Shown: positions 48,652 through 51,754 of the stretch, piece after piece
Numbering within the stretch: the first letter of the stretch is position 1
How the letters are laid out: each line of letters starts with the position of its first letter
Source of the DNA: Nitrospirota bacterium
GTDB lineage: Bacteria > Nitrospirota > Nitrospiria > Nitrospirales > Nitrospiraceae
DNA length: 61,984 nucleotides
Assembly (NCBI GenBank): GCA_030684575.1
Contig: JAUXVD010000001.1
Location: 1-61,984, forward strand
Reading direction: 5' to 3'
The notes under the pieces: model-generated
The model's database searches: none
Told to the model about the DNA's origin: nothing
Seen by the model: the letters and a program-made list of their open reading frames with translations, nothing else
Program-made: the position numbers and the translations under genes

Positions 48652-49986
48652 TTACGCCATACTGTGGATTTTGAAACTACGAACATAGGCATCCGGTTGG
48701 CTCGCATCGAACTCCCGGCCCATGATCGTATGTTTGGCCATCGTCCCTTGATGCGTTTGATAGCCCAACTCTTTCGCGATCCGGTCGCAGTCGGCCGCCA
48801 GATAGACCTGCTCGGCCACGGACTTGTAATTGACCTCGCCCTTTAAATGACCCCACCGTTTCATTTGGGTCATGATCCAAATCGCCATCGAGTGCCAGGG
48901 AAAGGGATCGAAATCGATACGGCTCGGATCCTTCTTAATTGCGCCCAATCCGTCCGCGTAGGTTCCCGTCAGTACCTGTTCCAAAACCGTCACCGGCTGA
49001 TTCAAATAATTCGTCGGTGCAATCGCCGCGGCAATCTCCTTCCGATGAGCCGGGTTCGACGCGTAGTGGGTGGCATCCACGATGGACCGGAAGAGGGCCA
49101 GGAACGTATTCGGATACTGCGTGGCGAAATCCTTAGAAATCGCGAACCCGCAACAGGGATGCTTATCCCAGATTTCCTTGGAAAGCTTGAAGATGAACCC
49201 TGCGTTTTCGTAGACGGCCCGTTGGTTGAACGGATCGGGGGCCAGATATCCATCGACATTACCAGCCTTCAGATTGGCCACCATCTCCGGTGGCGGCACG
49301 ACACGGATTTGCACATCTCTGTCAGGATGCACGCCGCCCTCTGCCAAGTAATAGCGCAGAAGATAGTTATGCATCGAGTAATCGAACGGCACACAAAAGC
49401 GAAATCCCTTCATGTCGGCGGCAGTTTTCACGCCCTTGTGTTTGTTATGGAGCGTGATAGCTTGCCCATTAATATTTTCAATCGCCGGCATGTAAAACGG
49501 CACCGGAACCGATCCCACGCCGAGCGTGATGGCTAATGGCATGGGCGACAGCATATGCGCCGCATCGACATCTTTATTAATGGCCCAATCCCGCACCATG
49601 GCCCAGCCGGCTGCACGTTTGACCTTGGCATTCAGGCCATGCTTGCTATAGAACCCCAGCGGCTCCGCCATGATAATCGGCGTGGCACAGGTGATGGGAA
49701 TAAAGGCGATGTTGAGATCCGTCTTTTCAGGTTTCCCGACCGGATCGGCCGCGAATGCGACGAACTCTTTCAACGGGAGCAATTCAGCGACAAGCGCCAT
49801 GAGCGCTGCGCTTCCCATGGATGCGAGAAACCTCCGTCGTGATGGAACGGCGGCGTGGATGACCGCCGATGCTACAGCTTGCTCGACGTTGCGCTCAAAA
49901 TACTCGTCGGAGGATTCGCCCTTCACGACAGCCACTGCGGGATTCGCTGTCATCGTCCGCTTACTGGCCCCATCTCCTTCGCTCAT
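48652..49986 (-). CDS. cynA: Substrate-binding protein, CynA/NrtA-like, Tat-exported
   Basis: 444 residues. A twin-arginine signal (SRRRFLASMGSAALMALVAEL, about residues 50-70) follows an unusually long N-terminal region of ~48 residues. The mature part is a type II periplasmic binding protein of the NrtA/CmpA/CynA family: LNIAFIPITCATPIIMAEPLG, KHGLNAKVKRAAGW, HKGVKTAADMKGFRFCVPFD and YLAPDPFNQRAVYENAG. Cyanate, nitrate or nitrite are the candidate ligands; cynS in the same operon favours cyanate. GGAGG precedes the ATG. Preceded by two leader units. Confidence 0.87.
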   Translation of the reverse strand: MSEGDGASKRTMTANPAVAVVKGESSDEYFERNVEQAVASAVIHAAVPSRRRFLASMGSAALMALVAELLPLKEFVAFAADPVGKPEKTDLNIAFIPITCATPIIMAEPLGFYSKHGLNAKVKRAAGWAMVRDWAINKDVDAAHMLSPMPLAITLGVGSVPVPFYMPAIENINGQAITLHNKHKGVKTAADMKGFRFCVPFDYSMHNYLLRYYLAEGGVHPDRDVQIRVVPPPEMVANLKAGNVDGYLAPDPFNQRAVYENAGFIFKLSKEIWDKHPCCGFAISKDFATQYPNTFLALFRSIVDATHYASNPAHRKEIAAAIAPTNYLNQPVTVLEQVLTGTYADGLGAIKKDPSRIDFDPFPWHSMAIWIMTQMKRWGHLKGEVNYKSVAEQVYLAADCDRIAKELGYQTHQGTMAKHTIMGREFDASQPDAYVRSFKIHSMA

Positions 49987-50058
49987 GACCGCCTCCTTCT
50001 GTGTGTTTCGGCAACTGTCTGTTTACCGAGCCCCAAGATCCGATCCCTGAACATGCCT

Positions 50059-50100
50059 AAAATAAAAAACGCCCGCCTCCCAGTCGTGAGAGACGGACGC
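50059..50100 (-). terminator. Second leader terminator upstream of cynA
   Basis: Minus-strand CGTCCGTCTC pairs with GGAGGCGGGCG (two G-U pairs), followed by TTTTTTATTTT. Its 5' arm overlaps the single six-base-loop hairpin at 50093-50110. It lies 72 bp before the cynA start. Confidence 0.85.
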
Positions 50101-50110
50101 CATTGTCCGC
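50093..50110 (-). promoter_or_regulatory. Single AANGGC-loop hairpin, second cynA leader unit
   Basis: Stem GCGGAC/GTCCGT with loop AATGGC (A1, G4), equivalent to hairpin 2 of the complete units. The upstream position where hairpin 1 would be expected holds a different stem (GATAGG/CCTATC, 10-base interior) with no matching loop. It is therefore a half unit, perhaps a decayed or variant duplicate. Confidence 0.6.
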
Positions 50111-50176
50111 ATTGATAGGTCTGCACAGGCCTATCCACTGTGTACGGTGGCACCGATCTCCGATTGATCTGTGCCG

Positions 50177-50223
50177 AAAACAAAACGGCGTCCGCCACTC
50201 TTTCCAGAATGACGGACGCCGTT
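50177..50223 (-). terminator. First leader terminator upstream of cynA
   Basis: Minus-strand AACGGCGTCCG pairs with CGGACGCCGTT around an 18-base or so interior, followed by TTGTTTT. The 5' arm contains the loop and 3' arm of hairpin 2 (50212-50229), so the two structures are alternatives. Confidence 0.87.
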
Positions 50224-50270
50224 GTCCGTGTGCCGTATATCGAGAGCCTTACCGAGGCGCCATTGCCTCG
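50212..50270 (-). promoter_or_regulatory. ANTAR-type dual hairpin in cynA leader
   Basis: Hairpin 1 (50253-50270): stem CGAGGC/GCCTCG, loop AATGGC. Hairpin 2 (50212-50229): stem ACGGAC/GTCCGT, loop AACGGC. Both loops have A1 and G4; the hairpins are 23 nt apart, and the second overlaps the terminator at 50177-50223. It fits antitermination by an ANTAR regulator of the cyn genes. Confidence 0.83.
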
Positions 50271-50289
50271 AATCCGCTCATAAGGGAGA

Positions 50290-50344: not shown

Positions 50345-51754
50345 CTAGACGTCGTAATAGAGGTAGAACTCATACGGATGCGGACGCAACCGCATGGTAT
50401 CGACTTCCTTGGTCCGCTTGTACCCGATCCAGGCTTCGATCAGGTCCTTGCTGAAGACCCCGCCTTTGAGCAGGAACTCGTGGTCCTTCTCAAGGTTGTT
50501 CAACGCTTCGTCGAGGCTGCCCGGCATGGTGCGAATCTTCGCCGCGGCCTTCGCCTCGAGATCGTAGAGATCCTGCTCTGCCGGTTCACCAGGGTTGATC
50601 TTATTCTGGATGCCGTCCAACCCGGCCATGAGCATGGCAGAGAAGGCGAGATAGGGATTCGCGGCCGGGTCTGGGAACCGCACCTCGATCCGCTTTGCCT
50701 TGGGGCTCGGGGAGTACATGGGAATGCGGATGCCGGCCGACCGGTTCCGGCTGGAATAGGCCAACAACACCGGAGCTTCGAACCCTGGCGTCAAGCGCTT
50801 GTAGGAGTTCGTCGTCGGATTGGTAAAGGCGGCCAGCGCCGGCGCATGTTTTAGAATCCCGCCGATGTAGTGCAGGCACATCTGCGACACGCCCGCATAT
50901 TCCTTTCCTGCGAACAGGGGCTTGCCGTCCTTCCAGATGCTCTGGTGGCTATGCATGCCCGATCCGTTATCGCCGAAGATCGGCTTCGGCATGAAGGTCG
51001 CGGTCTTGCCATGTCGGCGAGCCACGTTCTTCACGATGTACTTGTACATCATCATCTTGTCTGCCGTTTTGACCAGCGAATCGAAGCGGATATCGATTTC
51101 CGCCTGACCGGCCGTGGCGACTTCGTGGTGATGCTTCTCGATCTGGATGCCGGCTTTCTCCATCTCCAGAATCATCTCGCTGCGGATATCCTGTTGCGTA
51201 TCGGTCGGGGCAACGGGGAAATAGCCTTCCTTCTGGCGGATCTTGCCGCCCAGGTTATGGCCTTCCTGTCCCATGTTCCAGACGCCTTCTTCGGAATCGA
51301 TGAAGTAGTAGCCGCTGTGGCCATTCTGATCGTACCGGGCTTGATCGAAAATGAAGAACTCGGCTTCGGGCCCCCAATAGGAGGTATCGCCGATCTTCGT
51401 GCTCTGGAGGTATTTCTCCGCCTTCTGGGCGACATAACGCGGATCGCGATCGTAGGTCTCGCGCGTGATCGGATCGACCACGTTGCCGATGAGGCTCAGC
51501 GTCGGGACTGCACAGAACGGATCGAGACAGGCCGTCGACGGATCCGGCACGACCAACATGTCGCTGTTATTGATGGCCTTCCAGCCGCGAATGGAGGAGC
51601 CGTCCAGTCCGGACCCGTCCTTGAAGAGGTCTTCCGTCAATTCATTCGTCGGAATACTGAAATGCTGCCAGGTCCCGATAAGATCGACGAACTTCAAGTC
51701 GACGATCTGGACTTTATGTTTCTTCACATACTCCAACACTTCCCGTACGTTCAT
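50345..51754 (-). CDS. glnA: Glutamine synthetase type I
   Basis: 469 residues, GSI-beta type. [31 protein letters not shown], the ATP-site [16 protein letters not shown] and the PFAAPTNSYKRL-like [18 protein letters not shown] are present. The adenylylation Tyr is kept in [10 protein letters not shown], so regulation by GlnE-type enzymes is feasible; two half-size GlnE proteins are encoded at 30-34 kb. It lies 46 bp downstream of glnD with no leader motif of its own, and is probably co-transcribed with glnB-glnD. Confidence 0.97.

Follow-up and report, generated by a model that had tools for sequence, protein, structure and literature searches.

A conserved tandem leader at the glnA/cyn junction of Nitrospira, a candidate serial pair of ANTAR-controlled attenuators with a non-canonical first hairpin in the second unit

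The RNA targets of ANTAR proteins are defined by two hairpins, P1 and P2, each with a hexaloop carrying A at position 1 (A1) and G at position 4 (G4), the second of which overlaps an intrinsic terminator (PMC3369931). G4 is the sole base-specific contact in the EutV–RNA structure (PMC8934654), a terminal C:G pair was selected in NasR SELEX (PMC7496416), and A1 is required in EutV P1, where the A29U exchange lowers induction (PMC3369931). It is still unexplained why ANTAR proteins need two hairpins when a single one suffices for binding (PMC8934654). In the part of the literature that deals with the Desulfotomaculum acetoxidans regulon, 13 ANTAR attenuators are assigned to six transcription units (PMC3369931). 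Outside the ANTAR systems, tandem homologous ("pseudo-cooperative") riboswitches, such as those for TPP and c-di-GMP-I, place two independent attenuators for one signal in series, and the response steepens when identical switches are arranged in tandem (PMC9481103). A literature search for ANTAR in Nitrospira found no such work; the top matches were almost all Antarctic papers.

On the minus strand, the leader described here is preceded by glnA, whose stop is near 50345, and followed by a cynA-like gene that starts at 49986; it lies within a window of 61,984 nucleotides, which is the whole stretch of DNA that was analyzed. Direct reading recovered the arrangement that an earlier note had proposed from the sequence, namely a promoter, a full unit of two hairpins and a terminator, and then a second terminator preceded by a hairpin with an AANGGC loop (Table 1). 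The promoter was not picked up by a sigma-70 consensus scan and was revealed by conservation instead: TTGAC[C/G] and a -10-like TAYA stand 85-93 nt ahead of the P2 of unit 1 (P2-1) in 18/18 tandem leaders. T1 and T2, whose tails read TTGTTTT and TTTTTATTTT, respectively, outranked all other terminator-like sites in the 18 kb scanned, and the 230-nt leader folded with a z-score of -6.5. Downstream of the cynA-like gene lie a permease, an ATPase (ntrCD subfamily, over cut-off) and cynS (over cut-off). The window gave no match to any curated Rfam family at gathering threshold.

Table 1. Features of the glnA/cynA junction.
Feature	Sequence or type	Position	Strand	Basis or remark
glnA	type I glutamine synthetase	50345..51754	-	NCBIfam TIGR00653, 686 bits; directly upstream of the tandem leader
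Promoter	TTGACC-17-TACATA	50318-50290	-	conservation among tandem leaders
Unit 1 P1	GAGGC[AATGGC]GCCTC	50269-50254 (50252..50271)	-	covariance-model match; closing C-G
Unit 1 P2 (P2-1)	GGAC[AACGGC]GTCC	50227-50214	-	direct reading, 14-mer search, covariance model
T1	18-bp terminator	50223-50184; with U-tract 50177..50223	-	-32.9 kcal/mol, z -9.2
HpX	GGCACAGATC-AATCGGA-GATCGGTGCC	50175-50149	-	hairpin absent from the earlier note
HpY	GATAGGCC[UGUGCA]GACCTATC, GATAGG/CCTATC stem	50135-50114	-	P1-like hairpin of unit 2
Unit 2 P2 (P2-2)	GGAC[AATGGC]GTCC	50108-50095	-	14-nt conservation island, 20 leaders
T2	15-bp terminator	50101-50068; with U-tract 50058..50101	-	-23.6 kcal/mol, z -5.4
cynA-like gene	substrate-binding protein (NMT1_2)	48652..49986	-	Pfam PF13379, 272.6 bits; predicted first gene controlled

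Unit 1 shows the features of a canonical ANTAR target, a system to which the earlier note had given no name. Both hexaloops carry A1 and G4 (AAUGGC in P1, AACGGC in P2), and the 3' half of its P2 doubles as the T1 5' arm. We built a covariance model on 20 canonical Nitrospira units, leaving out the window sequences and all unit 2 sequences; it recognized unit 1 as a dual hairpin (50271-50214, 56.3 bits), and canonical P1 stems covary. Across the whole genome the model found exactly three full units (60.7, 56.3 and 54.5 bits), the next-best full-length match scoring 20.4 bits. All three lie inside the window, in its nitrogen cluster: at 59406-59349, before a porin-amt-amt-glnB-glnD-glnA run, in the glnA/cynA leader, and at 46373-46311, before nirC. 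Since these are the only full units in the genome and all precede nitrogen genes, the set looks like a compact nitrogen regulon. The P2 14-mer GGACAANGGCGTCC has exactly six matches in the 3.79 Mb genome, four of which are leaders within the window, compared with none for the reversed control.

The genome encodes a single PF03861 protein, of GAF-GAF-ANTAR architecture, and an ANTAR protein is present in 29 of 31 other genomes of the genus, nearly always in single copy. Aligned with EutV, whose G4-contact residues are taken from the crystal structure (PMC8934654), the protein keeps R142, K149, E160 and M172 and has F for Y164; K143 and R175 are also kept, K147 is replaced by R, and several backbone-contact residues are changed (R168 to Q, N173 to D, R177 to S). 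Unit 1 is the predicted target of this regulator, with antitermination as the predicted outcome. The resemblance to the ANTAR dual-hairpin RNAs of Enterococcus faecalis eutP/G/S/A, Klebsiella nasF and Pseudomonas amiE (PMC3369931) extends to the two A1/G4 hexaloop hairpins, the overlap of P2 with an intrinsic terminator, the nitrogen genes downstream and an ANTAR protein in the genome. The Nitrospira leader differs from those RNAs in having two units in series, with A1 missing from P1 of unit 2. Further, linkers of canonical Nitrospira units are mostly 14-34 nt long, compared with 5-12 nt for EutV, and the regulator is neither a response regulator nor a NIT-ANTAR protein.

Several observations concern the surroundings of this predicted regulon. 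The GAF region of the ANTAR protein matched the nitrate sensor NreA weakly, below cut-off. Its gene (L123:9780-11045, on contig G000:C5) is located at a contig end; in five relatives (G017, G010, G011, G020 and G001) the ANTAR gene is found some 3 kb upstream of the amt leader, which makes C5 a probable neighbor of the window. The amt leader itself (59406-59320, minus strand) is a canonical unit with a TTGACA promoter, followed by a BBP2-type porin, two amt genes, glnB, glnD and glnA. Between its terminator and the porin start sits an extra hairpin, GTTGCGCAC[AATGGC]GTGCGTGGC (59205-59182, minus strand), with an ANTAR-like hexaloop and no U-tract behind it. The third unit, between cynS and nirC (46373-46282, minus strand; P1 AAAGGC, P2 AACGGC, terminator), begins about 40 nt past the cynS stop without a TTGAC promoter; as an internal attenuator, it would imply that cyn-nirC-nirA may be a single transcript with a further checkpoint.

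For the comparison with other Nitrospira, we pooled three sources: DNA similarity in 61 genomes, the P2 14-mer in 32 genomes of the genus (matched in 31 of the 32, with an almost empty reversed control), and a scan of genome contigs for the pattern P2-N90-120-P2, which gave 15 Nitrospira matches and two outside Nitrospira (L140 and L147) that were judged to be chance. This yielded 21 tandem loci, or 20 distinct leaders after one near-copy was dropped. Wherever glnA was readable, the tandem follows it directly, P2-1 starting 105-123 nt past the glnA stop, and a cyanate operon or nirC lies downstream.

In all 20 leaders, P2-2 forms an island of conservation: its 14 nt are invariant apart from loop position 3 and a single position-5 change, with variable flanks on both sides. 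Again, as in unit 1, its A1/G4 hexaloop hairpin overlaps the terminator, in line with the earlier claim of two successive regulated terminators. The GGAC arm and A1/G4 were kept in 20/20 leaders, including 12/12 loci whose finding made no use of the unit 2 P2 pattern. Since the GGAC arm lies outside T2 and is not needed by it, its conservation points to an antiterminator hairpin, and unit 2 is, on the strength of the whole 14-nt island, probably still an ANTAR target. We therefore regard it as distinctly improbable that T2 is a plain backup that stops read-through from glnA and the promoter without ANTAR control. The strength of the T2 hairpin and the position of the tandem right after glnA, whichever operon comes next, would suit such a backup, but an unregulated T2 would leave cyn permanently off, and GGAC and A1/G4 are conserved.

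The upstream part of unit 2 is less regular. The covariance model of canonical units matched P2 alone there (17.4 bits vs. 54-61 bits for full units), so the earlier statement that the second unit lacks hairpin 1 holds for the canonical form of that hairpin. It does not hold as a simple absence: upstream of P2-2, 20/20 distinct leaders have a C-G-closed stem, 5 bp or longer, topped by a potential G4 hexaloop, whereas shuffled leaders give such a hairpin at 2-18% per leader. In this shuffle test G4 and C-G were fixed from prior knowledge and A1 was dropped post hoc, after the data had been seen; given the structural role of G4 (PMC8934654) and the C:G selection by NasR (PMC7496416), the criterion is not purely post hoc. 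Canonical P1 loops, from unit 1 and single leaders, carry A1 in 68/69 cases and G4 in 69/69 (n = 69 after removal of two obvious mis-picks). Position 1 of the unit 2 loop is G in 18 leaders, U in the window and A in one. The difference in A1 frequency (1/20 vs. 68/69) has a Fisher p of about 3e-17, a value that overstates the independent evidence as the sequences are related. The distance from this hairpin to P2-2 is 5-10 nt in most leaders and 25-40 nt in others.

In the window, the P1-like hairpin is HpY, whose loop, UGUGCA, has G4 and lacks A1 and thus falls outside the canonical P1 definition, and whose stem contains one C.A mismatch. Its linker to P2-2, at 5 nt, is inside the EutV range of 5-12 nt and below the 14-34 nt of most local canonical units. 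The HpY stem covaries in 10 leaders (seven cells changed on both sides; 0/500 shuffles) and is 98% paired, vs. 23-38% when slid. The earlier note had suggested that hairpin 1 changed into the GATAGG/CCTATC stem, and the best evidence for this comes from L142, the only leader whose unit 2 P1-like loop has both A1 and G4: the same stem, GATAGGTC/GACCTATC, there carries the hexaloop AGCGCA, so a changed hairpin 1 is a plausible reading of the stem in the window. Leaders of the focal clade can form a U-A or G-C pair between loop positions 1 and 6, which covary; the HpY loop may thus tighten to a GUGC tetraloop, a poor predicted ANTAR site. In six leaders of type B, it is the upstream hairpin that bears the G4 hexaloop, and a spacer hairpin separates it from P2. 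HpX has a loop of 7 nt in the window and a hexaloop, GUCGGA, in L003 and L004. HpX was considered as a universal hairpin 1 and rejected: it fits type B, L015 and L141, but has the 7-nt loop in the window and is degenerate in L005. Judged from these leaders, hairpin 1 of unit 2 is not simply lost. With A1 of P1 absent, unit 2 cannot be counted as a full dual-hairpin RNA if the definition is applied strictly, but it most likely works like one.

On balance, we favor, with moderate confidence, a reading of the glnA/cyn junction as two ANTAR-controlled attenuators in series, in which the second checkpoint has a weakened recruitment hairpin. Anatomy, conservation, covariation and the single ANTAR gene are read from the sequence, and on them rest the predictions of binding, antitermination, signal and dose-response. 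Against this reading stand the loss, in 19/20 unit 2 loops, of the A1 that EutV P1 requires, the possible tetraloop of the focal clade, which may not bind, and the variable position of the P1-like hairpin relative to P2-2, set beside canonical linkers of mostly 14-34 nt. Polymerase from the local promoter, and probably also from glnA read-through, would meet T1 and then T2. With active ANTAR protein absent, both terminators would form and cyn would be off. When active, the GAF-GAF-ANTAR protein would bind P1 and P2 of unit 1 and hold P2, blocking T1; it would then have to hold P2-2 to block T2. As unit 2 would combine a full-strength P2 with a variant recruitment hairpin that keeps G4 and the closing C-G and has lost A1, passing the second checkpoint would probably take a higher level of active regulator, or assistance from regulator loaded at unit 1. 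Serial checkpoints would make the off state tighter and the predicted dose-response steeper, and the tighter or graded control proposed in the earlier note is a reasonable expectation. As the pair directly follows glnA whichever operon comes next, a further role in stopping read-through from the amt-glnA run is suggested.

Unit 2 might instead depend on regulator recruited elsewhere. ANTAR protein recruited at unit 1 could service P2-2, leaving P1 of unit 2 unneeded and free to drift, an arrangement we hold to be unlikely. It would agree with the proposed role of P1 as recruitment hairpin and with single hexaloops binding as well as pairs (PMC8934654), with the relaxation of A1 next to an invariant P2-2, and with the possible tetraloop of HpY in the focal clade. 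However, EutV no longer antiterminates when its linker is lengthened by 20 nt (PMC8934654), while P2-1 and P2-2 are 109-148 nt apart here, and the P1-like hairpin has retained G4, its closing C-G pair and a covarying stem, contrary to what free drift predicts. Rather unlikely, too, is that unit 2 is a P1-independent or G1-type antiterminator, active only with regulator loaded at unit 1.

An RNA relay was considered as well, in which holding P2-1 frees the T1 3' arm, GGACGCCGTT, to pair with P2-2/T2 and block T2, so that T2 stops leaked transcripts only. Constrained folding of the focal leader with P2-1 held gave this pairing as the minimum-energy fold, and it forms before the T2 3' arm emerges. 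Nevertheless, the margin was only 0.3 kcal/mol, T2 formed and the relay was absent in 18/18 other leaders folded, and L141 and L142 break the complementarity at loop position 3; moreover, complementarity between the T1 arm and P2-2 follows automatically from the repeated P2 sequences. As a conserved mechanism the relay was rejected, being the minimum-energy fold in the focal leader only, and we consider it extremely improbable.

The serial pair appears to be old. The earlier note had regarded the second terminator as a possible duplicate; as a recent or local event this is contradicted by a tandem that is spread through the family, in several genera, and looks ancestral. Tandem leaders fall on both sides of the glnA tree (midpoint root only), and three changes suffice for the distribution of tandem and single leaders. 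The relatives that lack the second unit, which the earlier note would have counted as refutation, are best read as three losses of unit 2 nested among tandem lineages (one clade of ten, G015 and G020), so the tandem is probably ancestral and single leaders are losses. These losses, together with the loss of canonical P1, are what a decaying, functionless duplicate would lead one to expect, but P2-2 and its terminator have been kept in distinct tandem leaders across several genera, and this explanation is very improbable. Two single-unit leaders (L009:1420-1650 and L013:1500-1670) resemble deletions between P2 repeats, the upstream half of unit 1 being fused to a T2 tail of the window type. Retention of P1-1 in the single-unit G020 and G015 was discarded as evidence for P1, because a deletion between P2 repeats forces it. 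In a permuted cluster, L102 (G021:C126), the order is glnA-[tandem]-nirC-cynS, with two more single leaders downstream, which suggests that the tandem stays with glnA and not with one downstream operon.

The D. acetoxidans regulon likewise involves nitrogen genes and transcription units with several ANTAR attenuators each, although a variant P1 like that of Nitrospira unit 2 is not described in that part of the source (PMC3369931). As in tandem riboswitches, two independent attenuators would act in series on one predicted signal and a steeper response is expected (PMC9481103); here the control would be protein-mediated antitermination rather than a metabolite aptamer, and the units are unequal. 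Beside known ANTAR switches, what is new is a conserved, predicted tandem attenuator whose unit 2 pairs an intact P2 with a non-canonical hairpin 1. Occurring family-wide beside a normal unit on the same transcript, unit 2, with P2 intact, G4 kept and A1 relaxed, provides a natural test of the role of hairpin 1. If unit 2 were active only with regulator loaded at unit 1, an ANTAR protein would be passed along the nascent RNA from terminator to terminator, a true AND gate that would tell antiterminated from leaked polymerases. For Nitrospira, we propose a single-regulator antitermination regulon that would cover ammonium uptake, cyanate and nitrite.
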